Positions 8,531 through 23,127 of a stretch of DNA of 30,376 bases are shown piece by piece (position 1 is the first letter of the stretch; each line of letters starts with the position of its first letter). The position numbers were made by a program, and so were the translations under genes. The notes beneath the pieces were generated by a model. The model ran no database searches, was not told the DNA's origin, and saw only the letters and a list, made by a program, of their open reading frames with translations. This DNA is from a virus. The DNA lies in the IMG/VR virus record IMGVR_UViG_3300046411_000678, positions 1-30,376 of that record; one strand, given 5' to 3'.

Positions 8531-8558
8531 ATTATACACTCTTTTTTTGCTTTGTAAA
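8531..8558 (-). promoter_or_regulatory. Probable promoter for the 192-aa gene
   Basis: On the minus strand a perfect TATAAT (8531-8536) lies 16 bp downstream of TTTACA (8553-8558), a weaker -35. The -10 overlaps the stop codon of the upstream methyltransferase and ends 7 nt before the ATG at 8523, so any transcript would be nearly leaderless. Confidence 0.55.
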
Positions 8559-9665
8559 GACATAAATTCCTTCAAATTTTTCTACACCATCTTGCTTTCC
8601 ATTACCAACGCCAGGTCTAGTGTTCAACATCATCTTAACTGTTTCGACATGTTTAAATCCTAACTTTTCTGCTGTTTCAATCCAGCGGTCAACAACTTTG
8701 AATTCTTCTTTAGGAGTTTTATAGTCTGCAATGTTTGTTGCAAAAGTACCTTCTTCATTTAAGCCTTTATGTATGTTACGCATTGTAGGTGCTACATATC
8801 CTTCAAACCAATTATCCAAACTATCGTATCGGTTCATACATTGTGTGGGTTCATCTGAATACTTCTCTAAATTAAAGTAAGGCGGACTGCTAAATGCACA
8901 ATCTATATTTTCAGGTACAAACTCTTCGCTAACACTTTGATGTATTTCCCCTTCTCTGCCACCACTCTCAATAATAAAATGGTTTAGTAGTTTTAAGTTC
9001 TCTACGGTTTCCGTATTAGGGTCAACACCAACATAATCAAATTGAAGATTACTGCTTGTAACGCCCAGTAAACGTCCTCCATATCCGGAACTATAATCAT
9101 ATACCCTACCCCATAACACAGGGCAACAATACTCAGCAATAGCCCGAGCGTTCTGAGGCTTAAAATTTTGAATATTTTCTCCGGTGACCAATTCAAGAGA
9201 TCGTCTAATAGCAGTAGGGTAAACAAGACTGTTCCCGTCCCTAAATTCAAAACAAATACGAATTGCTCTGCGAAGTTTTGTATCATCATAAAATCTATCC
9301 TTTAAACTATTTGAACCCCTGCCTTTAGGCTCCGCTGTCATCATGTTTGGAAACATAAATCTATTGATTGTTTGTCCTCTATTGTTTCCTAAACCTATCC
9401 TCCCATTTTGTATATTGTTATAACTGCTATCTCGAAACTTCTTTATTGCATCTACAATACCTTGTTCTGTATAATAGACGATAGGCACTATGTTGATACT
9501 GCGGTATAATTCAAATACTGCTTCAATAGTGCCTTGTGGGTCTGCTTCGTATGTTTCGTTTGTAAATTTATCAAACTCTGAGTACAATGGTTCGTATCCT
9601 GTAAACTCGGCGCCGTGTATGTTCTCAGGCTTAATATTCCAAAACGAATAAATTTTATCTAACAT
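8532..9665 (-). CDS. DNA methyltransferase, SPPY type (N6-adenine or N4-cytosine)
   Basis: A 377-aa protein. The SAM-binding motif I region is VYDYSSGYGGRLLG (188-201), followed by YVGVDPN (211-217) and the catalytic motif IV SSPPYF (259-264). The SPPY type is used by amino-methyltransferases acting on adenine N6 or cytosine N4. Motif I precedes motif IV, as in the alpha or gamma arrangement. The first 180 residues are an unassigned domain, possibly target recognition, which is unusual in length. The product could protect phage DNA from restriction or mark it for regulation. No restriction nuclease is adjacent. The start at 9665 abuts the MazG-like stop. Alternative substrates cannot be excluded. 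Confidence 0.85.
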   Translation of the reverse strand: MLDKIYSFWNIKPENIHGAEFTGYEPLYSEFDKFTNETYEADPQGTIEAVFELYRSINIVPIVYYTEQGIVDAIKKFRDSSYNNIQNGRIGLGNNRGQTINRFMFPNMMTAEPKGRGSNSLKDRFYDDTKLRRAIRICFEFRDGNSLVYPTAIRRSLELVTGENIQNFKPQNARAIAEYCCPVLWGRVYDYSSGYGGRLLGVTSSNLQFDYVGVDPNTETVENLKLLNHFIIESGGREGEIHQSVSEEFVPENIDCAFSSPPYFNLEKYSDEPTQCMNRYDSLDNWFEGYVAPTMRNIHKGLNEEGTFATNIADYKTPKEEFKVVDRWIETAEKLGFKHVETVKMMLNTRPGVGNGKQDGVEKFEGIYVFTKQKKSV

Positions 9666-9919
9666 TATTTCTCAAATAACTTACTCCACTTTTTTAATTT
9701 ATGAAGTTTCTCTTGTTCTCTATCTTTTAAACCGGCTTCGTTAATTAATCCACGTTGTATTAAAACTTGAATGAGGCAGTATACATCACCTGCCTCATCC
9801 TGTAAGTTTTGATGGTATTTTTTCTTACCATCACTGCGTATCATTTTACTACATGCCTGCACTAGTTCTCCACATTCTTCCATTGTTATTACTAGTGCTT
9901 CTATGTCTTTACTCTTCAT
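9665..9919 (-). CDS. mazG: MazG-like nucleotide pyrophosphohydrolase
   Basis: An 84-aa all-helical protein. The metal-binding signature of the MazG/all-alpha NTP pyrophosphatase superfamily is visible: MEECGEL (E14, E15, E18) and DEAGDVY (E42, D45). Members hydrolyse (d)NTPs to monophosphates; phage versions are thought to adjust nucleotide pools during infection. The length is that of a single minimal domain rather than the two-domain E. coli MazG. It overlaps the upstream lipoprotein gene by 11 bp and abuts the DNA methyltransferase, so all three should share one transcript. Confidence 0.82.
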   Translation of the reverse strand: MKSKDIEALVITMEECGELVQACSKMIRSDGKKKYHQNLQDEAGDVYCLIQVLIQRGLINEAGLKDREQEKLHKLKKWSKLFEK

Positions 9920-11618
9920 TGCCGTACCATATGTTTATGAATCCAGACTTGTTTTCAAATGCACTTGCAGTAACACCAGCCTCATACATCCAGTCGTGTA
10001 ACTGAGGAACAACTACGCCTGTGTGCCATTGTATTACATCCATAACACCATCGCCATTCATATCTGCAAAGAAACTATCTGCTTCTAGATCCAAACATAT
10101 ATTGTTCTCATCACATATTGTATATCCTGCTATGCTAGGTAAATCGTTTGTACTGGTCTGAACCAATTTACCAGTTTGGTCGTTCAACCAAAGTAAAGGC
10201 AACGTATCGTGTCCCCAACCATTAGCAGTGAACCAATCCATGTAGCCATCACCATTAACGTCAATGGCTTGCTTTAATACACCGCCTCCTGGTGTGAGGT
10301 CTGTGTCAAAAGGAGACTCAACCCATTCAAGCCTTCCTGAATTAAACTCAAACATTGTCATAATAGTTGCTTCGTAAAATTCAGTATCACAATCATACGT
10401 TGCATTAGGGTCGTATTCCTCACCATATGGCAGAGTCTTTGTAGCTGCCATTGCAAGTAATACTGGCTGACTGTCTGGTGTTGGGTACCATATCTCAAAG
10501 TGGTCCCAAGCAAATCCACCAAAGTAGGGTCGATCATTGTGGAATACAATTTCTCGTCGACCGCACCATTGGTCTTCACCTTGACCCCAATCAATCCACT
10601 CTTTGTTATCATATACATTCCAGTAATCTAGTTGTGTAGGAGCACCACCATTAAGTTGGTATAATGCAATACCAGCACCATCTCCTGCTACTGCATAGTC
10701 AACGTTAATAGACTTTGTTGTACCAAAAGGAGTATCATTAAAAGAATCAATTGCCTGAATATAATCATGATTACCCATATTGTATTTTACAGAGTCGTCA
10801 TAGTACTCTTGTGAAACATCAACAAATTCTTCGCCATCTTGTCTGAATGCCATAGGCATATCATTAAGCGGATCCATATCCCAATAAGTATATAATATAT
10901 CCCAATTATAATTCATATTAGGAATACCTATTACACCTTGTGCCCAAATAGGCTCACCAAGCTCTTTCATTTCATACTTGCCATCCAAATTAGGTACAAG
11001 TATACCTTGCTTAGAAACAAGGTTGCTCATATCAGATTTATACTTACGTTGAAAGTCATCTCTACTAACAACATAACTGATTAACGGTAATCCGCCATTG
11101 GGGTTTTCTAGTGGTGTAAAGAATCCTGCTACACCACCAAATTGTTCGCCGCCAAGTTCCATGTCATTTTTACCAAATAGACTTTGGTTATCCACGGCAT
11201 AGCCGCCACCTGGTTGACTAACTAGTGCCAACATTGTATTGCGGAAAGGTAGCTCGTGTTCAACTTGATCTCCTGGCCAATCAACATCAGGGTCACCACA
11301 CAACACAAACATCAGCATGTCCAACTGACTGTCGTTGTTTAAGTCTAATGTGATAACATGTTGTATATTAGATAAAGTACAATAGTCAATATCTAATTGT
11401 GCAACTGCATCTGTGATGCCTACATCAGGCTCAGTGTTATATCCAATATCACTGCCGGGCATTGTATGAGGATATGTTGGCGATGGTGGTGGTGTTGGAT
11501 TCAATGGTTGTAGTCCTACTGCTGGAGATGTGCCACCGCCACCGCCACAGCCTACAACTAGAATAATGCAAGTAGTTTGCAATAAAGTTCTAAATAGTTC
11601 CACTTTGTTTACTCCCAT
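9909..11618 (-). CDS. Secreted lipoprotein with FG-GAP/VCBS-type repeats
   Basis: A 569-aa protein with a clear lipoprotein signal: short n-region, hydrophobic core TLLQTTCIILVV and lipobox VVGC with C24, followed by a Gly run and a Pro-rich linker (to about 52). The rest looks like a beta-propeller. Calcium-loop repeats are seen as LDLNNDSQLD (91-100), IDVNGDGYMD (about 451-460) and ADMNGDGVMD (about 517-526), with many Trp/Tyr/Asp residues. Such domains mediate surface binding in bacterial proteins. The likely location is the host envelope or outer membrane. An alternative GTG start at 11603 has a better Shine-Dalgarno (GGGAG) and would still keep the signal peptide. It is first in a unit with the MazG-like protein and the DNA methyltransferase, behind a consensus promoter. 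Confidence 0.85.
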   Translation of the reverse strand: MGVNKVELFRTLLQTTCIILVVGCGGGGGTSPAVGLQPLNPTPPPSPTYPHTMPGSDIGYNTEPDVGITDAVAQLDIDYCTLSNIQHVITLDLNNDSQLDMLMFVLCGDPDVDWPGDQVEHELPFRNTMLALVSQPGGGYAVDNQSLFGKNDMELGGEQFGGVAGFFTPLENPNGGLPLISYVVSRDDFQRKYKSDMSNLVSKQGILVPNLDGKYEMKELGEPIWAQGVIGIPNMNYNWDILYTYWDMDPLNDMPMAFRQDGEEFVDVSQEYYDDSVKYNMGNHDYIQAIDSFNDTPFGTTKSINVDYAVAGDGAGIALYQLNGGAPTQLDYWNVYDNKEWIDWGQGEDQWCGRREIVFHNDRPYFGGFAWDHFEIWYPTPDSQPVLLAMAATKTLPYGEEYDPNATYDCDTEFYEATIMTMFEFNSGRLEWVESPFDTDLTPGGGVLKQAIDVNGDGYMDWFTANGWGHDTLPLLWLNDQTGKLVQTSTNDLPSIAGYTICDENNICLDLEADSFFADMNGDGVMDVIQWHTGVVVPQLHDWMYEAGVTASAFENKSGFINIWYGNEE

Positions 11619-11696: not shown

Positions 11697-12332
11697 TTAG
11701 CCGCTAAATGTGGCTTTAATTGCTAGTTGAGTGAGGTTAAAGTTACAACTAATGCTATATCTTACACTATTTCCTACAACAGGACTAGTATAATGTGATA
11801 AAGTAGACGGAAATATGTACATTTCTCCTTCTTCTGGTTGTACTGTTATTTGTGTTTTTCCAAATCCATTTGGTGATGCTTCACCGTATCGAAAATGTAA
11901 TTGTCCTAACTGATCTTCATCTTTGTTATTTGTAAAATGTTCTGCACTATTATCGAGCGATATTTTTGGGAATATAACACATACCAAATCCGTACCAGGA
12001 TAATGTACATGTGGAGGATTATACTCTAGTGCAATCTGCTTGTTATACCATGCATTTGTTAATTCTAAACAATCAACTCCATGTAATAATGCATTGTTGT
12101 AAAAACCACAGTCTACCATCAAGTACGATTCCATGTTCTGATGTATTGTTTGATAAACATCTAATGGTTTTAGTTGTTCAACAATATAGTATTCTTCTCT
12201 GAGGTAGCCTACGAGATTTGGATTAGCCTTGTGATCATTTGGCTTGCAAATATTGTATAAACTTTGTGTATCTTCATCGCTGAGATTATACTTTACAATT
12301 TTTGGTCCAAATCCCCCAAGTACTTCCATCAT
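11697..12332 (-). CDS. Putative 2-oxoglutarate/Fe(II)-dependent oxygenase
   Basis: A 211-aa protein with a double-stranded beta-helix pattern. NPPHVHYPGTDLVCVIF (about 105-121) supplies a candidate HxH metal pair (H108, H110), and IFPSTLSHYTSPV (about 173-185) supplies the distal His (H180); R191 in SVRYSIS would bind 2-oxoglutarate. The classical motif is HxD...H, so HxH is a variant. Phages often carry such proteins; possible substrates include proteins, nucleic acids or small molecules, and nothing here decides. The ATG overlaps the thyX stop as ATGA, and the gene is the last of the long uvsW-led run. Confidence 0.72.
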   Translation of the reverse strand: MMEVLGGFGPKIVKYNLSDEDTQSLYNICKPNDHKANPNLVGYLREEYYIVEQLKPLDVYQTIHQNMESYLMVDCGFYNNALLHGVDCLELTNAWYNKQIALEYNPPHVHYPGTDLVCVIFPKISLDNSAEHFTNNKDEDQLGQLHFRYGEASPNGFGKTQITVQPEEGEMYIFPSTLSHYTSPVVGNSVRYSISCNFNLTQLAIKATFSG

Positions 12333-13000
12333 AACTCTTTGTCTTTGAACTCTTCTGCAAGTGGAAATATTTTTGTAATGACATCTGCTACTGCATGGGC
12401 AAGTTCAATATGTTCTAACTGTGTTCCGTTGGCTCCACGCAATTCTATGTAATGTATCCAACTACGCAATGTTCCGTTTACATAGAGCCTGCTTAACGTG
12501 TTTCCTTCAGGTAGCACTACTCTGGCCTGCTCTTTAGCAATACCGTTGCTTACAGCGAAGTTATATGCGTCTAAGGCGGCGTCTATAACTTTGTTTTGCA
12601 TTTCTGTCCAATGGCTTTGTAATAATGTATCATCTGTTGGAATGCTGTTTTGTCGATTCTTAGGGTCTTGTAGTCTTGCTTCACGTAATTCAAACTCTAA
12701 GTCTTTTGTAGGATCAGCATAACGTTGACTAAACTCTTGAAAACTAAAACTCCTGTGTCGTAGTAATTGTCTTCCAATGTCCCTGGTTGTTTCTATTTCC
12801 AAACACACACTGACCATTTCAAGTGGTGACCAGTGTTTATGCTTCATTAAATACTTAATAAGTTTTTCGCTGGTTTCTTTGTTATTTTGATTACCAGGAT
12901 TACTAACCCTTGCACAATATGCAACAAGCTCTGTTGCACTTGTAGTATCTATGAGATAACTACCGTCTGATTTGCTGTAACTAACCAAGTTAACTTTCAT
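12329..13000 (-). CDS. thyX: Flavin-dependent thymidylate synthase ThyX
   Basis: A 223-aa enzyme converting dUMP to dTMP using FAD, NADPH and methylene-tetrahydrofolate, supplying thymidine for phage DNA. The diagnostic RHRx7S signature is present as RHRSFSFQEFS (81-91), followed by QRYADP. VYVNGTLRSW-like sequence (here LYVNGTLRSWIHY) matches the dUMP-binding region, and ELRGANGTQLEHIELA follows as in the family. Length is typical. It overlaps the upstream methyltransferase by 11 bp and the downstream oxygenase-like gene by 4 bp. Confidence 0.96.
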   Translation of the reverse strand: MKVNLVSYSKSDGSYLIDTTSATELVAYCARVSNPGNQNNKETSEKLIKYLMKHKHWSPLEMVSVCLEIETTRDIGRQLLRHRSFSFQEFSQRYADPTKDLEFELREARLQDPKNRQNSIPTDDTLLQSHWTEMQNKVIDAALDAYNFAVSNGIAKEQARVVLPEGNTLSRLYVNGTLRSWIHYIELRGANGTQLEHIELAHAVADVITKIFPLAEEFKDKEL

Positions 13001-13589
13001 TTACTTTTCCTTTCATTATTGTTTGAGATCGAGGATGAATAACTTTTGCTCTTTCTAATTTCCAACCTACACTGTTTGCTATTTCTTCCATAGTAGATTG
13101 TTTGTAGTAAAAATCTTTTCTTGCATGGCTTTCTGTTGGATTTTGTTTTTCTTTTTTCTGTTGATTTTCTTCAAAATATGTAAAATAAAATACACTGTCA
13201 TTAGATGAGATAGTTTTTAGATTTGAGAAACATTTGGCTATGTCCTCTTTGACTAAATGAGAAAACAAACTGTTTGCCCATGCAACATCATAACTTGGAC
13301 AAAAATTAAAATCAAATGTGCTGTTAATTGCAAAGGACGGTCTTTTACTTAGGTCGTTATGTAATTCTTTGTCTATGCCTTCATTGAGCATTCTATCATA
13401 TGCTTCTAGGCCATAATATTTTCCTGTATTCAAATAAGGTATCAGATGTTTACCTAGGCGTAAACTACCACATGCAATGTCTAATATAGTTGTATTTGGT
13501 TGTATGTCTGCAATGTCTTTGAGAGTGTTGAATTGCCACAGGCCAATCCTTTCAAAATCACCGCCAACGTACTCGCGATGGCCTTCCAT
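12990..13589 (-). CDS. SAM-dependent class I methyltransferase
   Basis: A 199-aa protein. Motif I is ILDIACGSLRLG (35-46), followed by an acidic residue at the end of the next strand in YYGLEAYD (58-65), where SAM ribose would bind. A conserved-looking DVAWANSLFSHL (about 100-111) is where small-molecule or peptide methyltransferases place motif IV. There is no NPPY/SPPY, so DNA amino-methylation is unlikely; the substrate is unknown. It lies 24 bp after a DSBH protein and overlaps thyX by 11 bp. Confidence 0.8.
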   Translation of the reverse strand: MEGHREYVGGDFERIGLWQFNTLKDIADIQPNTTILDIACGSLRLGKHLIPYLNTGKYYGLEAYDRMLNEGIDKELHNDLSKRPSFAINSTFDFNFCPSYDVAWANSLFSHLVKEDIAKCFSNLKTISSNDSVFYFTYFEENQQKKEKQNPTESHARKDFYYKQSTMEEIANSVGWKLERAKVIHPRSQTIMKGKVNES

Positions 13590-13613: not shown

Positions 13614-14213
13614 TTATACTTTTCCTGTGATTTTTTTACGATATTCAGGCTTCATTGGAGCAATAAAAGAGCACAAAAATAGTATGTGATCAGCTCGTCC
13701 TTGATTAACAGTTAGTCCCCAAGGAATGTGAGAAGGCCAAAACACCAACTTATGTTTACGAGCCTTTACGACGTGATTATCACCTTGTAGTAGGTTAGGA
13801 GATGAAAATAGTTTTGTACCAAAGTTTTCAAAATATAGATCGCCGCCTTTGGTATGCTGTAACCATATAGCACAATTATACCAACGTTCTTTGTCTAAGT
13901 TTACAGGAAATATATGCTCTGGTTTCAAAGATATTAAGTAAGGGTTCAACACACTGAGATTACGTTCGTGCAATGGAAGAACTTTATTTACTTCCTTATA
14001 AAAGTAATCGCCGATTAGCATTTGCAATTTTTTTAATTGACTATCCAATGGATATTCTTTGTTTGTGATTACACCATAATTTGTTTCCATAGCAATAGCA
14101 GAGTCCAAACTTTTGTTTGCTCCTCCAATAATTGCAGAATCTATCTCTGGCGTAACTTCAATCTTACCTTCAAAAATGTAATCTGGAAAAAGTGTTGATA
14201 CTCTAAATGGCAT
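13614..14213 (-). CDS. Double-stranded beta-helix (2OG-oxygenase-like) protein
   Basis: A 199-aa protein. The segments WLQHTKGGDLYFENFG (about 117-132), VKARKHKLVFWPSHIPWGLT (about 147-166) and ADHILFLCSFI follow the strand order of prolyl-hydroxylase-like folds, where GGxLxF and FxPSxxHxxxPV-type motifs are usual. The distal His of the metal triad is plausible; a clear HxD is not obvious, so activity is doubtful. Its first half (MPFRVSTLFPDYIFEGKIEV) is unassigned. The start abuts the zinc-finger gene stop. A DSBH protein of unknown substrate is the safest call. Confidence 0.62.
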   Translation of the reverse strand: MPFRVSTLFPDYIFEGKIEVTPEIDSAIIGGANKSLDSAIAMETNYGVITNKEYPLDSQLKKLQMLIGDYFYKEVNKVLPLHERNLSVLNPYLISLKPEHIFPVNLDKERWYNCAIWLQHTKGGDLYFENFGTKLFSSPNLLQGDNHVVKARKHKLVFWPSHIPWGLTVNQGRADHILFLCSFIAPMKPEYRKKITGKV

Positions 14214-14918
14214 TTATATTCCTGCTACTTCGCAAGTCTGTTTTACTTCGCGAACTTCTTCTTTGTTCTTTGTGAACAGTTTCATCCAAAACGGAGCATC
14301 AATAATGTGTTGTATCATTTTTACTTGCTCTGTGTTTAAGTTATTTAGCAATTGATCACCAGTTCCACTTAGATATATTAGCCAAGGAGATATCTTGGCT
14401 GCTCTGATATCATGTACTGCTCTAGCCGGAGTTACTTTTGTAAAGTATGCTTGCCAAATGTTGTCTGTTTCTTCTGCCCAGTTAGACAAGTAAATAATAT
14501 TTCTTTCTAATGCTCTCATGCCTGTTTCTTTTTTAACAAACTCTAATAAGTACTCATCATAAAGTGCATCACTGCTCCAGTCTTTTAATTTTTTACCAGT
14601 TTTAATTAACCATTCTGCAAATTTCTCTGGCTCTAAATATTCATTGCGAATACAACTTCTGCCAAATTTTACAAAGCCTTCGTAGTAGTTACTGGTGATA
14701 AAATCCTCTATGCTTTTGGATTTACTTGCTGTTGTGTTTAGTTCATAAAACATTTGGAACACTCTGTAACCTAAACGTACATGTGTCATATCTTTGTCTG
14801 CAAATCTTCTTTTCTTTACACACATATGAACACTAAGAGTTCTTTCACTCTTGAATGACTTCCCACACCATTTACATGTGAAATTATTTTCCGAAGATGT
14901 CTTTGATTGTTTTGTCAT
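14214..14918 (-). CDS. Zinc-finger phage protein, unknown function
   Basis: A 234-aa protein with an N-terminal C2HC zinc finger: FTCKWCGKSF with C15 and C18, then HMC with H31 and C33. A basic patch VKKRRF follows. The rest is helical, with SPWLIYLSGTGDQLLNNL near 176-193. I recall homologues in marine T4-like phages next to the 158-aa gene upstream. The finger suggests binding to DNA, RNA or a protein partner, perhaps in regulating transcription. Its start lies inside the upstream gene (35 bp overlap). Confidence 0.78.
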   Translation of the reverse strand: MTKQSKTSSENNFTCKWCGKSFKSERTLSVHMCVKKRRFADKDMTHVRLGYRVFQMFYELNTTASKSKSIEDFITSNYYEGFVKFGRSCIRNEYLEPEKFAEWLIKTGKKLKDWSSDALYDEYLLEFVKKETGMRALERNIIYLSNWAEETDNIWQAYFTKVTPARAVHDIRAAKISPWLIYLSGTGDQLLNNLNTEQVKMIQHIIDAPFWMKLFTKNKEEVREVKQTCEVAGI

Positions 14919-15360
14919 CGTATCCGTGTGCTACTGCTAATTCTTTTAGTTCCTGTTTGCTATTAATTTTTAACATTAATTCTACCTCATCACTTTTTAT
15001 ATGAGGGTATAAGTCAGAAATAAAATTACTAACTTTGTCTTTTTTCTTCCTTGCATTAGGTGGTTTCAAATAAGGATGAAACTGTATTTTGCCAACGCCA
15101 CATGCACTTAACAATAACCATTGAAGTTCTGGATGTTTGCTAACTTCCATAAAGTCTTTGTTAACAAGTTCATTTGTCATGTAAATATAGTGTGCGGCAT
15201 CTTTGCCTTGTACACTGCTAGAGTAACGCATCATCATCCATGCACTAAAGGCTTTCTTTTGTTCAGACGTCAGTCTATTATAAAACTTCCTATCTTTTTT
15301 GTCAAGAGCAGACATAACATCTTTTAAAGGTATTGCTGGTGCTTTTTTAGCCATTATCAT
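14884..15360 (-). CDS. Conserved phage protein, unknown function
   Basis: A 158-aa soluble protein. Helical segments (KDRKFYNRLTSEQKKAFSAW, about 22-41) are followed by PELQWLLLSACGVGKIQFHP (about 77-96) and a lysine-rich linker. The GVGK string is not in a P-loop context. ATGs at 15360 and 15354 are both possible; an AGGTAA site 4-10 nt upstream serves either. It overlaps the upstream FkbM gene by 14 bp and the downstream zinc-finger gene by 35 bp, so the pair is probably functionally linked. I recall this pair in other marine T4-like phages. Confidence 0.75.
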   Translation of the reverse strand: MIMAKKAPAIPLKDVMSALDKKDRKFYNRLTSEQKKAFSAWMMMRYSSSVQGKDAAHYIYMTNELVNKDFMEVSKHPELQWLLLSACGVGKIQFHPYLKPPNARKKKDKVSNFISDLYPHIKSDEVELMLKINSKQELKELAVAHGYDDKTIKDIFGK

Positions 15361-15904
15361 TTACCTGTGTATATTTATATAGTGCATTTGCTTTTTCATT
15401 GCCTATAAGATTGAAGCCATTAGACACCAGTAATTCATTACATGCATCACCTTCAATAAGAATATAGTCTATTTTATATTTGTCAAAAGGAAAAACTGAT
15501 AGTACTTCATGTTCGCTACCTTCTAAGTCTATTTTTAAAAACGTTATTTCGTTGATATTGTTTTCATCTAAAATTGTTTCAAGTTTTTTACACTCTACTC
15601 TTTTAGTTTTCATGTATGGTGATGCAAAAATATCTATGTTTGGAAAAACTGCTTGAGCCTTAGACATATACAAATTTTCTTTGACGCCGCTATAAAACTT
15701 TAAGTCAGGGTGTACATTTCCTAAGTCATAAAAATCAACATATCCATCATAACTGTATACTGCATAATTTATTCTAGCATCAACATGTATGCCTTTCCAA
15801 CCAGCATCTTCAAACTTTTTAGTTTCTGCTCTTTCTTCTGAACAACCTAAATCAACATAAAAACCAGTGGCATTTTTCTTTAAGATTTCCTCTAACACTA
15901 CCAC
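15347..15904 (-). CDS. FkbM-family SAM-dependent methyltransferase
   Basis: A 185-aa protein. The SAM motif I is FYVDLGCS (15-22) and the family-defining segment FLKIDLEGSEHEVL (122-135) is clear. FkbM-type enzymes usually O-methylate sugars or small molecules; in phages they are often suspected of altering glycans or other surface polymers. The domain is compact and complete. It overlaps the 85-aa gene by 7 bp upstream and the 158-aa gene by 14 bp downstream, and lies just after the SAM-supply genes metK-apt-mtnN. Confidence 0.88.
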   Translation of the reverse strand: MVVLEEILKKNATGFYVDLGCSEERAETKKFEDAGWKGIHVDARINYAVYSYDGYVDFYDLGNVHPDLKFYSGVKENLYMSKAQAVFPNIDIFASPYMKTKRVECKKLETILDENNINEITFLKIDLEGSEHEVLSVFPFDKYKIDYILIEGDACNELLVSNGFNLIGNEKANALYKYTQVNDNG

Positions 15905-16155
15905 TTCTCCAAGTTAACACCGCGAGTATTGAATGTTCCTTTTGGTTTTGATTTTGTGTGGTCAAAAGGGACAGATACTGAATATGGATCTCTTAGACCT
16001 TTACCTATCCATTTAAACTTGTCGTAAACTGTAGAAGGGTTTACATGATCAAAATATCTTATTACCCATGTATCTTGCTTTTCTGCGTATGCTTCGACTT
16101 CTTCATATGTACCATAAACCAATTCTTCATTATCTAATTTTGCTAGTTCTATCAT
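15898..16155 (-). CDS. Small protein of unknown function
   Basis: An 85-aa soluble protein rich in aromatic and charged residues (TWVIRYFDHVNPSTVYDKFK in the centre), with no cysteines, membrane segment or recognised motif. I do not recognise the family. Its start overlaps the MTA/SAH nucleosidase stop (ATGA) and its end overlaps the FkbM start, so it is tightly coupled to both. That position makes it a candidate partner of either enzyme, which is inference. Confidence 0.7.
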   Translation of the reverse strand: MIELAKLDNEELVYGTYEEVEAYAEKQDTWVIRYFDHVNPSTVYDKFKWIGKGLRDPYSVSVPFDHTKSKPKGTFNTRGVNLEKW

Positions 16156-16673
16156 TTGTCATTGTAAATTTTAATAAAATGTTCTTCGCCTTTAGCGACG
16201 TTTTCTAACCAACTTGTATCTGCAGAATCATCTGCACTATCACTAACATACTTATAGCATTTAAACTCGACGTGTGCTAGTTTACAGGCTTTAGCAATAG
16301 CAAAAGCCTCCATATCAACTACATGAGCAGGGTGTTCTAAGTTAGGGTCTGTAACAAAGTTGTCTCCTGTGCTACAAGTATAACCAACACCCATTGATAT
16401 TGTAATTGGGTCTTTTGGTAACATTAGTTCTAATGCTTCTGGACATTTGCCTTTATCACGTTCTACGAAGTTTACCATTTCGTGGCAACCATGATCTAAT
16501 TTGATTCCACCTGCTGTACCAAAGTTCCAAACAGTATCTGGTTTATATTTTTGTATTAATTTTGCTGCTGTGATAGCGGCATTAATTTTGCCTACACCCG
16601 TAAAGAATACATTATCCCACTTAGCCATGTTAGGTGCTTCATTTTCTAATGCAATCAAAATGATGTCTTTCAT
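16152..16673 (-). CDS. mtnN: MTA/SAH nucleosidase-like purine nucleosidase
   Basis: A 173-aa member of the PNP/UDP phosphorylase-nucleosidase superfamily. Bacterial MTAN hydrolyses methylthioadenosine and S-adenosylhomocysteine, releasing adenine. Key positions agree with E. coli MTAN: E12 in ALENEAP, FGTAGGI (51-57), VDMEAFAIA (119-127) with ribose-binding E122, and YVSDSAD (142-148) with the base-protonating Asp (D145). It is about 60 residues shorter than the E. coli enzyme, with middle loops reduced, so another nucleoside substrate is possible. It follows apt directly, which could turn the released adenine into AMP. Confidence 0.85.
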   Translation of the reverse strand: MKDIILIALENEAPNMAKWDNVFFTGVGKINAAITAAKLIQKYKPDTVWNFGTAGGIKLDHGCHEMVNFVERDKGKCPEALELMLPKDPITISMGVGYTCSTGDNFVTDPNLEHPAHVVDMEAFAIAKACKLAHVEFKCYKYVSDSADDSADTSWLENVAKGEEHFIKIYNDK

Positions 16674-17207
16674 TTATTCTCCTTCGTATTCCAGTAGATA
16701 TTCTACATTATATCCTGCTTCTCTTATTATAGCACTTCCTCCTAGATCGGGCAAGTCTATAATTGCAACAATTAATATATCTTCTTTAGGAATATTAAAA
16801 TTTTCGTGTACAAGATCTGCACATGCCATTGCAGTACCGCCTGTGGCAATAAGATCGTCTACGATAACAACTTTACCTGTTATAGGTGAAAGTTTTTGTA
16901 TGTGTATTTCTGTTTCACCATATTCTAACTTAAATGCTTTGCTATAAGTTGGATGTGGAAGTTTGCTTGGCTTTCTTGCTAATATAAAGGGTAGGTCAAA
17001 TTTGGTTGCAACAGGTGCACCAAAAACAAATCCTCTACTTTCAATACCAACAACAGTATTAGCATCAAATCTTGCTGTTGCTACAGACAATCTAGTTATT
17101 GTATGATTGAATGCTTCAGCATTGTCAGTGATGCTTGTGATATCCCTAAATTGTATTCCTGGTATAGGATAGTCGGATACCGTTCTTATAATTTTTTTAA
17201 GATCCAT
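16674..17207 (-). CDS. apt: Adenine phosphoribosyltransferase Apt
   Basis: This enzyme converts adenine and PRPP to AMP. The PRPP-binding motif VVIVDDLIATGGTA is at residues 113-126 when counted from the ATG at 17207. The N-terminal DYPIPGIQFRDIT and GIESRGFVFGAP match the Apt family, and length (177 aa) is normal. An upstream in-frame start at 17264 would add 19 atypical residues lying inside metK, so 17207 is preferred; it leaves an 11-bp overlap with metK. Together with MetK upstream and the nucleosidase downstream it forms a SAM/adenine recycling set. Confidence 0.93.
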   Translation of the reverse strand: MDLKKIIRTVSDYPIPGIQFRDITSITDNAEAFNHTITRLSVATARFDANTVVGIESRGFVFGAPVATKFDLPFILARKPSKLPHPTYSKAFKLEYGETEIHIQKLSPITGKVVIVDDLIATGGTAMACADLVHENFNIPKEDILIVAIIDLPDLGGSAIIREAGYNVEYLLEYEGE

Positions 17208-18306
17208 AATATAAAAATAAATTTGTTTTTTCCCAAGGGAGTTCTGGTTTACCAAAATGTCCATAGTTTGTGGTGTTGGTTAAATCTAAACCAAACAACT
17301 CAAACCTATCAATAATACCTTTTGGTGTTAAGTCAACTTGCTGTTGAAGTTCATATGCTAAGTCTTGTCTTACTACACCATCAGCATAGACATAAACACT
17401 AGTTGGTTCTACAACACCTATTGCATAACTTAGTTGTACTGTGGCATTCTTTGCTTGTCCAGATGCTACAATGTTCTTTGCCAAATATCGTGCCATATAT
17501 GCTGCTGATCTATCGACTTTAGTGCAATCTTTACCTGAAAAAGCACCGCCGCCATGTGGAGCATACCCGCCATAAGTATCCACAATAATTTTTCGTCCAG
17601 TAAGTCCTGTATCTCCATCTGGTCCTCCAATTACAAATCTACCTGTTGGGTTAATTAAAAATTCAGTGTCTGTTAAGTCAAATTCATCGGATAGTTCATC
17701 AACAATAATTTGTTCAACACTATCACGTACAGCCTGTATACTCATATCATCACTATGTTGTGTACTGCATACAATCTTTGTGATACCTGTTGGAGTATTC
17801 ACATCATCATACGACATAGTCACTTGCGACTTACTGTCAGGCCCAAGCCATGATTCTCCATTACGTCTTTCATGTGCAAGTCTGCGTAATATTTTATGGC
17901 TGTAGTATATAGCACTTGGCATATATTCTGGCGTTTCATCACAAGCATAGCCGAACATAAGCCCTTGATCACCTGCACCAAATTCGTCTGTACCTAATGC
18001 TATGTCTGAACTTTGTCCATGTAATTCATTGTAGACTTTTAAACTAGCCCAATGAAAACCATCTTGCTCGTATCCTATATCTTTTACAATGTCTCTTACT
18101 ATGTTTTCAATATGCTGTTTATCAAACTTGTTGCTTTTGTATTCGCCGGCTAATGTAACCATATTAGTTGTTACTAATGTTTCTACTGCGGCTCTGTGAT
18201 TTAGTTTTCCATCTATTAGAAATGTTGCAACTGCATCAGATATCTGATCAGCAATCTTGTCTGGGTGTCCTTCAGAGACACTTTCACTAGTGAATTCATA
18301 TGCCAT
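17197..18306 (-). CDS. metK: S-adenosylmethionine synthetase MetK
   Basis: A 369-aa enzyme making SAM from methionine and ATP. Family signatures are intact: SEGHPDK (11-17) with H14 and D16, the GAGDQG motif (110-115), SKSQVT (158-163) with the phosphate-binding Lys, GGPDGDTGLTGRK (227-239) and the P-loop-like GGGAFSGKD (252-260) followed by KVDRS. Length is close to the bacterial norm (about 383). A Shine-Dalgarno-like GGATGAG precedes the ATG at 18306. A complete metK is uncommon in phages as far as I know. It lies between an APS-kinase-like gene and apt. Confidence 0.97.
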   Translation of the reverse strand: MAYEFTSESVSEGHPDKIADQISDAVATFLIDGKLNHRAAVETLVTTNMVTLAGEYKSNKFDKQHIENIVRDIVKDIGYEQDGFHWASLKVYNELHGQSSDIALGTDEFGAGDQGLMFGYACDETPEYMPSAIYYSHKILRRLAHERRNGESWLGPDSKSQVTMSYDDVNTPTGITKIVCSTQHSDDMSIQAVRDSVEQIIVDELSDEFDLTDTEFLINPTGRFVIGGPDGDTGLTGRKIIVDTYGGYAPHGGGAFSGKDCTKVDRSAAYMARYLAKNIVASGQAKNATVQLSYAIGVVEPTSVYVYADGVVRQDLAYELQQQVDLTPKGIIDRFELFGLDLTNTTNYGHFGKPELPWEKTNLFLYYGS

Positions 18307-18317
18307 ATTATCTCATC

Positions 18318-18746
18318 CTATAATTTAGATTTTATTTTGTCGATCCAAGTATTTACATAATTTTCTTCCCACCAAGTGTCTTTTGTGATAACAAAGTCTA
18401 CTTCTTCTGGGATTGGGTTTTGGAATACTTTATTAGTATCCTCAAACCGACCTTCTTCGATTGTGTTCAGCCAAATTGTTATATCTGCTTCGAAGTGTTC
18501 TCTGGCACTTTCAAATGGACAGACAAAATCACATATAACATTTCTGCCATTACTTTTTTCAAAGTCAGCAAATGTTTTCATGCGATTAGCCTGACGAGAT
18601 CTTCCTTCATCAGTGAAGTCCCAATCATCAGCCATTTTTCTCACTTCATCAGCATTGTACCATGCTGTATCAATCTCTTTCTGTAAACGTTCTGCCAAGT
18701 ATGTTTTTCCTGCACCTGGTAAGCCAAAGATTAATATTTTATTCAT
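18318..18746 (-). CDS. P-loop kinase resembling adenylylsulfate kinase (CysC)
   Basis: A 142-aa P-loop protein. Walker A is GLPGAGKT (8-15). WYNADEVRK (about 29-37) and FTDEGRSRQANRM (about 44-56) match the APS-kinase region where the adenylylsulfate site lies, and ICDFVCPFESARE corresponds to the family's SPxxxxRxxAR region. APS kinases make PAPS; many short phage homologues may instead phosphorylate nucleotides or nucleic-acid ends. The gene is shorter than CysC (about 200 aa). It sits just upstream of metK, perhaps pointing to sulfur metabolism. The kinase fold is firm, the substrate is not. Confidence 0.75.
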   Translation of the reverse strand: MNKILIFGLPGAGKTYLAERLQKEIDTAWYNADEVRKMADDWDFTDEGRSRQANRMKTFADFEKSNGRNVICDFVCPFESAREHFEADITIWLNTIEEGRFEDTNKVFQNPIPEEVDFVITKDTWWEENYVNTWIDKIKSKL

Positions 18747-21496: not shown

Positions 21497-21525
21497 ATTA
21501 TACCTTATCTGTACTGTAAAGTCAA
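21497..21525 (-). promoter_or_regulatory. Consensus sigma-70 promoter for uvsW, inside the 3' end of the TonB receptor gene
   Basis: On the minus strand TTGACT (21520-21525) and TATAAT (21497-21502) are 17 bp apart. The -35 and spacer overlap the last codons of the receptor gene. The expected +1 coincides with the A of the uvsW ATG (21491). Confidence 0.88.
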
Positions 21526-23127
21526 CAATACTTTACGTCCACCAACATCATAGCCTGGTAAAATTTCAGTTACATCATCAAGCAAATCTTGTACCGTCAA
21601 TGAAAGCTCAAACTTGTCTGATACTTTTCTTGATATTACAAAATCAAAAGACGATACATCTTCTAATGATGGGCCGTCCCATGGACCAGGCTCTCTTTCA
21701 AACTGGCCTCTCCATCTAAGTTCTGTGGTTGTATTACCGAATGATGCAAAATAAGCAAGGCTACCCATATACTCTGGCACTCTAGGTTGATCAGTGTCTG
21801 TGTATCCTGCTTTCAATCTTAGAGCTCCATATGGTACAACAAAGTTGTGCTTGATTCTAAGACCTTTTGTAGTGTACTCACCTGTGTTTACATACTGACT
21901 TATAGAACCATCATAGTCAATGTTCTGATCGAAGTCATATGCAAAAAGTGATACACCAAAGTAACCAATTTCGATACCCATACCTTCTTCTGGTTCTAAG
22001 TTAGGGTTTGGTTGTACCCATGAGTCGCCATACTGTTGGTATAGTGTAGGATTTCTATAACTTGTACTAAAGTTAGTAAAGAAGCCATCAACTGCATAGC
22101 CTACACGATAAACTCTCGCATCTTCACTTAAACGTGTACCTACTTGAAATCTATCTTGAAAGTTAAGTGTTGCATAACCACTGAGGTTAGTTTGGTCTTC
22201 TCCGGCATACTCTTCTTTGTCGAATGTAATACCTGCTATTAATTTTGCAGCCGGGTAACCTATATCAAAAGATTCTCTAGCATCAAAGTAATAACGTTTT
22301 GCTTCACTTTCATAAGTGCTAACACCTTCTGTGAAGTATTCGCTGTCAGAAGAACTGTATCCAAGTGTGAACATATCATTTCTAACACTTATATCTGTCT
22401 TTTCACCTGACTGTAAACAATCATTAGACTGCGACCAATCTGCTCCGTAGCAATTATCATAATCATAATCATAATCAGTACGCGACATTGCAACAGTTAC
22501 TCCATAGAACTCTTTTACTGCCTTAACAGTAGTGTTCTTGTAATCATCTTCTTCTGTGTTGTCATTCCTAACACTATCGTTAGATACATCAAATGATGTA
22601 ATACTGATAGCATCTAATAATGCAACATTTATAAGAGTATGGTCAGAACCTGCTCTTATTACTGCTTGGTTTGAAATCTCATCATTGATAAAGACAGTGC
22701 CACCTAGGCTACCAGAGCCATATAGTACACCGTTAGGTCCAGATACAACTTTAACATTTTCTAATCCAGTAACAACATCATGACCGAAATCATACCAACC
22801 TGCACCAGCATCATTCACCGGTACGCCATTCTTATACACTGTAGTGTGTACGGTTTGTGTGCCACGTTCATTGTACAACGCTGCCCCGCCGTATCCACCA
22901 GATGTAAAAGACATTGCTGGCATTAGTGTTTCAATTATTGTGAGATCCTGTGATACTTCTGTTGCATCCTGCATCTCTGAACTACCAACTACTACAATCT
23001 CTTCAATAAGATCATCACTTTCCTCTTCCGCTTTAACTTCAGTAGCACATACCATTAGTAGCATAAAAACTACTGTAGCATATAACGGGCTAAAGTTTAA
23101 GTGAAAGTTCTTTCTAAAGTCATTCAT
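21505..23127 (-). CDS. TonB-dependent outer-membrane receptor (BtuB-like)
   Basis: A 540-aa protein with an N-terminal signal peptide (hydrophobic core about 17-27, likely cleavage after VKA at 33). A TonB box EEIVVVGS (42-49) is followed by a plug domain: NGVPVNDAGAGWYDFG (100-115) and GVLYGSGSLGGTVF (133-146). Many alternating aromatic/polar strands then make the barrel, and NPNLEPEEG (about 376) is the usual conserved periplasmic-turn motif. The family imports vitamin B12, siderophores or sugars using TonB energy. It is shorter than BtuB (614 aa). The C-terminus ends in LTLQYR rather than an aromatic residue. A strong Shine-Dalgarno (AAGGAG) precedes the ATG. A terminator lies just upstream, and I see no consensus promoter after it. 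Confidence 0.93.
   Translation of the reverse strand: MNDFRKNFHLNFSPLYATVVFMLLMVCATEVKAEEESDDLIEEIVVVGSSEMQDATEVSQDLTIIETLMPAMSFTSGGYGGAALYNERGTQTVHTTVYKNGVPVNDAGAGWYDFGHDVVTGLENVKVVSGPNGVLYGSGSLGGTVFINDEISNQAVIRAGSDHTLINVALLDAISITSFDVSNDSVRNDNTEEDDYKNTTVKAVKEFYGVTVAMSRTDYDYDYDNCYGADWSQSNDCLQSGEKTDISVRNDMFTLGYSSSDSEYFTEGVSTYESEAKRYYFDARESFDIGYPAAKLIAGITFDKEEYAGEDQTNLSGYATLNFQDRFQVGTRLSEDARVYRVGYAVDGFFTNFSTSYRNPTLYQQYGDSWVQPNPNLEPEEGMGIEIGYFGVSLFAYDFDQNIDYDGSISQYVNTGEYTTKGLRIKHNFVVPYGALRLKAGYTDTDQPRVPEYMGSLAYFASFGNTTTELRWRGQFEREPGPWDGPSLEDVSSFDFVISRKVSDKFELSLTVQDLLDDVTEILPGYDVGGRKVLLTLQYR

Follow-up and report, generated by a model that had tools for sequence, protein, structure and literature searches.

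A metK–apt–mtnN gene cluster centred on Apt in a marine T4-like phage probably serves SAM supply and adenine salvage

A 30,376-base fragment of a marine T4-like phage, an IMG/VR record hereafter called the window, carries genes for S-adenosylmethionine (SAM) synthetase (metK), adenine phosphoribosyltransferase (apt) and a short MTA/SAH-type nucleosidase (mtnN) head to tail on its minus strand. We read the cluster as probably being a jumbo-phage auxiliary module that would supply SAM, dispose of its by-products and salvage adenine, with adenine salvage at its centre. Apt is the hub of the cluster, partnered by metK alone in most phages, by mtnN alone in others, and by both in 19 contigs. The reading draws on gene identities, layout, co-occurrence, catalytic residues, fold and purifying selection, from which we infer expression, activity, substrate and a benefit to the phage.

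The window contains T4-like replication genes encoding a DnaB-like helicase, primase, UvsX, UvsW and gp32, and part of the terminase gene. Its source is probably a jumbo phage, that is, one with a genome over 200 kb; the window itself is a 30-kb fragment, and a 340-kb contig (G001) is syntenic with it over its entire length, with DUF6267, DnaB, thyX, mtnN-apt, uvsW, a TonB-dependent receptor, UvsX, gp32 and terminase. In addition, the nearest UvsX proteins among named phages belong to phages of 337–490 kb.

The metK gene (17197–18306, minus strand) encodes a protein scoring 437.7 bits against the NCBIfam model TIGR01034, above its cut-off of 309.4, and each of the three Pfam MetK domains (PF00438, PF02772 and PF02773) likewise scored above cut-off. 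The apt open reading frame spans 16674–17264 on the same strand, and its start is likely to lie at the ATG at 17205–17207 rather than at 17264, as judged from homologues and the sequence, giving a gene of 16674–17207. Apt reached 164.2 bits on NF002636 (cut-off 125) and 151.9 on TIGR01090, short of the cut-off of 185.85, and contains the PRPP motif VDDLIATGGTA and an RKxxKLP loop typical of the family, within which DD..ATGGT and RK..KLP are invariant in 21 sequences. The 5′ end of apt overlaps the end of metK by 11 nt, and mtnN (16152–16673, minus strand) starts directly past the apt stop with an AAGGAG site in front. The end of mtnN is in turn overlapped by 4 nt by an 85-aa open reading frame (15898–16155, minus strand) with no assigned function, which is conserved in a few close relatives only. 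For metK, apt and mtnN, dN was 0.024–0.138 against dS of 0.60–1.91, indicating strong purifying selection. Coordinates, family scores, motifs and selection thus uphold the initial annotation, which had described three intact genes that overlap or abut. In a scan for promoters and terminators, promoters were no commoner than in shuffled sequence.

MtnN matched Pfam PNP_UDP_1 (PF01048) at 53 bits against a cut-off of 25.1. Its best NCBIfam matches were all nucleosidase or MTAN models and all fell under their cut-offs (TIGR01704, 48.1 versus 73.8; NF004168 'nucleosidase', 94 versus 129), as do the bacterial members of its group. The phage enzyme shares the fold of E. coli MtnN/Pfs, an MTA/SAH/5′-deoxyadenosine nucleosidase, and is about 60 residues shorter. 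E12, E122 and D145 stand at the positions of the E. coli catalytic residues E12, E174 and D197. None of these sites, nor those matching M173 and F151, varies across an alignment of 27 phage and bacterial sequences. By contrast, the 5′ pocket differs from that of E. coli and lacks part of it, with R193 replaced by an invariant K and F207 by an invariant W, and V102 and F105 not conserved. An AF2 model (pLDDT 87.6) was led by MTANs in a Foldseek search of the PDB (best E 2.4e-11), the best 50 matches being MTANs or futalosine-hydrolase-type enzymes, while a fold search of BFVD returned only distant giant-virus nucleoside phosphorylases. Because the catalytic residues are conserved and the modelled fold is MTAN-like, the predicted nucleosidase chemistry is well supported, and the substrate may be SAH, MTA or 5′-deoxyadenosine. 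The chemistry proposed initially for the cluster fits the active-site residues.

To follow the cluster in related phages, we assembled 95 distinct viral contigs, most of them retrieved by searching with metK, apt and mtnN themselves and so biased towards the cluster. Both metK and apt were in view in 71 of the 95 and adjacent in 68 of these (65 metK-apt, 3 apt-metK, the latter order being that of a separate phage group); apt and mtnN were both in view in 28, always adjacent and within 30 nt of each other in 27; and all three genes occurred in 19, the window included. Because of the query bias, a second sample was drawn through a flanking gene, g158, chosen regardless of the cluster, which gave 50 loci whose upstream flank could be seen, close relatives still included. 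In this sample apt was present at 48 of 50 loci, metK at 45 and mtnN at 21, each mtnN being accompanied by apt. The arrangement recurs in dozens of contigs with dN well below dS, and is therefore not a product of chance. In nearly all relatives g158 adjoins a conserved C2H2-zinc-finger-like protein gene (14214–14918, minus strand in the window).

The presence of the three genes is modular. At a minimum, a uvsW tree covering 64 loci calls for 5 changes in Apt type, 5 in mtnN and 6 in metK. Two Apt lineages, A (IESRGF, the type in the window) and B (DARGF, 169–192 bits on NF002636), alternate at the same locus, one replacing the other, so that apt is swapped but almost never lost; lineage B is nearer to the Apts of Verrucomicrobia metagenome-assembled genomes (MAGs), which directly precede the same nucleosidase. 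In three phages a displaced metK is still kept away from apt-mtnN, 116 kb off in G001 and 13–16 kb off in two others (G007 and G023). A search of 15 records without a local metK found none elsewhere; most are fragments, which makes this a weak absence except in the complete genome of phage C48C1. The expectation that the genes would co-occur in related phages was therefore confirmed across the 95 contigs and the g158 sample, even where metK is displaced, and their adjacency recurs. The idea of a three-gene unit held only in part, as the majority of relatives carry metK-apt but no mtnN, and some, such as C48C1, carry apt-mtnN but no metK; these frequent partial pairs rule out a strict unit.

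Under the adenine-salvage reading, MetK would convert methionine and ATP to SAM in the infected cell, and SAM-using enzymes of phage and host would release adenosine-type by-products, namely SAH, MTA or 5′-deoxyadenosine. MtnN would free adenine from these by hydrolysis and so relieve product inhibition. Apt would join adenine to PRPP to give AMP, returning the purine consumed in SAM to the nucleotide pool that feeds DNA synthesis; where the phage lacks mtnN, the adenine would come from a host nucleosidase. The near-constancy of Apt suggests, at the level of gene content, that the shared need is adenine recovery rather than methylation. E. coli MtnN is known to clear SAH, MTA and 5′-deoxyadenosine, thereby relieving inhibition of SAM enzymes (PMC10986504).

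Several points count against a SAM-economy module. Hosts normally possess MetK, Apt and nucleosidase activities themselves. Over half of the relatives have no mtnN, and metK is absent from the complete 156-kb genome of C48C1 and from a 250-kb contig (G024). The changed 5′ pocket and the MTAN scores under cut-off weigh in the same direction. A phage PRPP synthetase was looked for and none was found, nor was LuxS in 17 records; the loop is therefore not closed by the phage alone, which would rely on its host for PRPP and for the handling of ribosylhomocysteine.

As consumers of SAM, the window had been credited with three methyltransferases, two of which exceed Pfam cut-offs: a class I SAM methyltransferase (12990–13589, minus strand; PF08242, 33.0 bits versus 30) and an FkbM-type methyltransferase (15347–15904, minus strand; PF05050, 47.9 versus 22.7). 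The third, a putative DNA methyltransferase and possible SAM consumer (8532–9665, minus strand), is weaker, at 20.1 bits versus a cut-off of 26.7 for N6_N4_Mtase (PF01555), but an SPPY motif is present in its close homologues. The suggested link between these genes and the cluster failed: among the relatives examined the FkbM gene was found in none and the class I gene in one only, and the 8532–9665 family, kept in G001 (about 80% identical) and in a contig closer to the window (G003), is widespread in phages that lack the cluster. Synteny and a scan with the 8532–9665 protein thus led us to reject methyltransferase linkage as a general rule, a further count against a SAM-economy module. A polyamine route, with SpeD making MTA, was also rejected, PF02675 being found in a single contig (G010). 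This AdoMet decarboxylase gene lies at 9484–9771 (L129), on a contig with apt-mtnN and without metK.

A different consumer is suggested by G001, in which a motif scan revealed the 8532–9665 homologue as the only evident methyltransferase against 11 radical-SAM (PF04055) matches. The displaced metK sits there in the order rSAM-metK-SDR-rSAM-rSAM, which is conserved in four contigs of this lineage. At the contig ends (331.8–337.0 kb and 4.9–13.8 kb; L163 and L147) we noted about nine radical-SAM genes, some of them SPASM, with metK inside. Radical-SAM enzymes release 5′-deoxyadenosine, which MtnN-type enzymes accept (PMC10986504, PMC6302742), raising the alternative that the by-product cleared is 5′-deoxyadenosine and not methyltransferase SAH, with MetK feeding radical-SAM proteins, MtnN removing the inhibitory 5′-deoxyadenosine and Apt saving the adenine. 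However, metK lies amid radical-SAM genes in one lineage only, a PF04055 search of the contigs closest to the window (G003, G004 and G006, fragments of 92–102 kb) gave no match, and the radical-SAM-rich 250-kb contig has neither metK nor mtnN. We hold this alternative to be rather unlikely, at perhaps one chance in several.

The surroundings of the cluster bear on a second alternative, that the three auxiliary genes serve nucleotide and SAM metabolism independently of one another within an island of rapid gene exchange, and that they adjoin because a bacterial apt-mtnN operon was captured and regulation is shared, no pathway joining them during infection. The presence of the genes is modular, the locus is rich in accessory genes with several insertions between cluster genes, and bacteria already have adjacent apt and mtnN. 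Nevertheless, the metK-apt pairing occurs in two gene orders, a displaced metK is retained, and apt is exchanged but hardly ever lost, and we regard the absence of any joint pathway as unlikely, slightly more so than the radical-SAM alternative. Other genes near the cluster include a 569-aa lipoprotein-like FG-GAP repeat protein (9909–11618, minus strand), partly conserved in the clade with widely varying identity, and two open reading frames flanking thyX and the methyltransferase (11697–12332 and 13614–14213, minus strand), of which one is a 2OG-Fe(II) oxygenase by Pfam and the other looks similar without a Pfam match. A truncated P-loop kinase gene (18318–18746, minus strand) has counterparts in sister phages encoding a single 266-aa protein, a kinase plus an NMNAT-like part; the full-length form (e.g. 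L083:187-984) has a C-terminal HxGH nucleotidyltransferase domain resembling NMNAT, and this second domain is missing in the window copy.

A wider reading of the island takes in a 540-aa BtuB-like TonB-dependent receptor (21505–23127, minus strand; PF07715 Plug), with a signal peptide, a TonB-box-like IEEIVVVGS and a model (pLDDT 71) whose leading PDB fold matches are BtuB. The receptor gene adjoins uvsW in much of the marine jumbo-phage clade, in the same conserved island as the cluster, and is found beside uvsW at each of the 18 distinct mtnN-bearing loci versus 11 of the 24 that lack mtnN, an association confounded by relatedness. In E. coli, mtn lies next to btuF, and this adjacency makes a B12-methionine-SAM connection worth testing. 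We nevertheless consider it improbable that the island as a whole forms a viral SAM economy, in which the receptor would import B12 for methionine regeneration by host MetH, SAM would be made, and by-products of radical-SAM or methyl-transfer reactions would be turned into AMP. Finally, some host defences deplete ATP or NAD, and Apt, alone or together with MtnN, could act as a counter-defence that salvages the adenine they release and restores the adenylate pool, but this idea, for which the near-invariance of Apt and the kinase and NMNAT-like neighbour of many sister phages speak, leaves the tight metK link unexplained and is very improbable.

Turning to known systems, metK is a recurrent viral auxiliary gene, and phage-borne SAM synthetases like that of the window, about 47–53% identical to it, occur in phages and prophages of Streptococcus, Helicobacter and others. 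In Verrucomicrobia MAGs and SAR116, a gene for a nucleosidase of this short family follows immediately after apt, and the two genes are divergent in Polynucleobacter; these bacterial pairs have no adjoining metK, and their nucleosidases are 36–51% identical to the phage protein. In two Verrucomicrobia MAG contigs (L182 and L189) a tgt-like gene, judged by eye to encode tRNA-guanine transglycosylase, comes after apt-mtnN. Adenine is likewise freed from SAM in queuosine synthesis. Among phages, C48C1 (OQ984149, annotated as Kyanoviridae) has adjacent apt-mtnN with a nucleosidase 57% identical to that of the window; in its complete genome, which lacks metK, the pair sits after ribonucleotide reductase and is annotated as hypothetical.

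The closest precedent is the Lake Baikal methylotroph phage VP_139, reported in 2020 to carry metK, an MTA/SAH nucleosidase and three methyltransferases, read as boosting the 'S-adenosyl-L-methionine cycle' (PMC7678222). The pathway had initially been thought undescribed in phages, whereas most of it, minus Apt, had thus already been proposed. As in VP_139, metK and the nucleosidase occur here in one phage genome, in each of the 19 contigs with all three genes, and the window has methyltransferases too, but these are not conserved with the cluster. The main text on VP_139 (PMC7678222) names no phosphoribosyltransferase, whereas here Apt is the hub of a marine jumbo-phage operon seen in dozens of contigs. 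Searches of full text and of titles and abstracts, with incomplete coverage, found no paper combining metK, a nucleosidase, adenine phosphoribosyltransferase and phage. What is new is the Apt branch together with the operon, its occurrence in two gene orders and its retention across a clade of marine jumbo phages, an uncultured lineage in which genes for making SAM and salvaging adenine form a conserved operon that has been put together repeatedly. Through one small enzyme, MtnN, it becomes testable which of the SAM by-products is limiting in infection, and Apt, missing from the published phage SAM-cycle model, is the gene nearly always kept.
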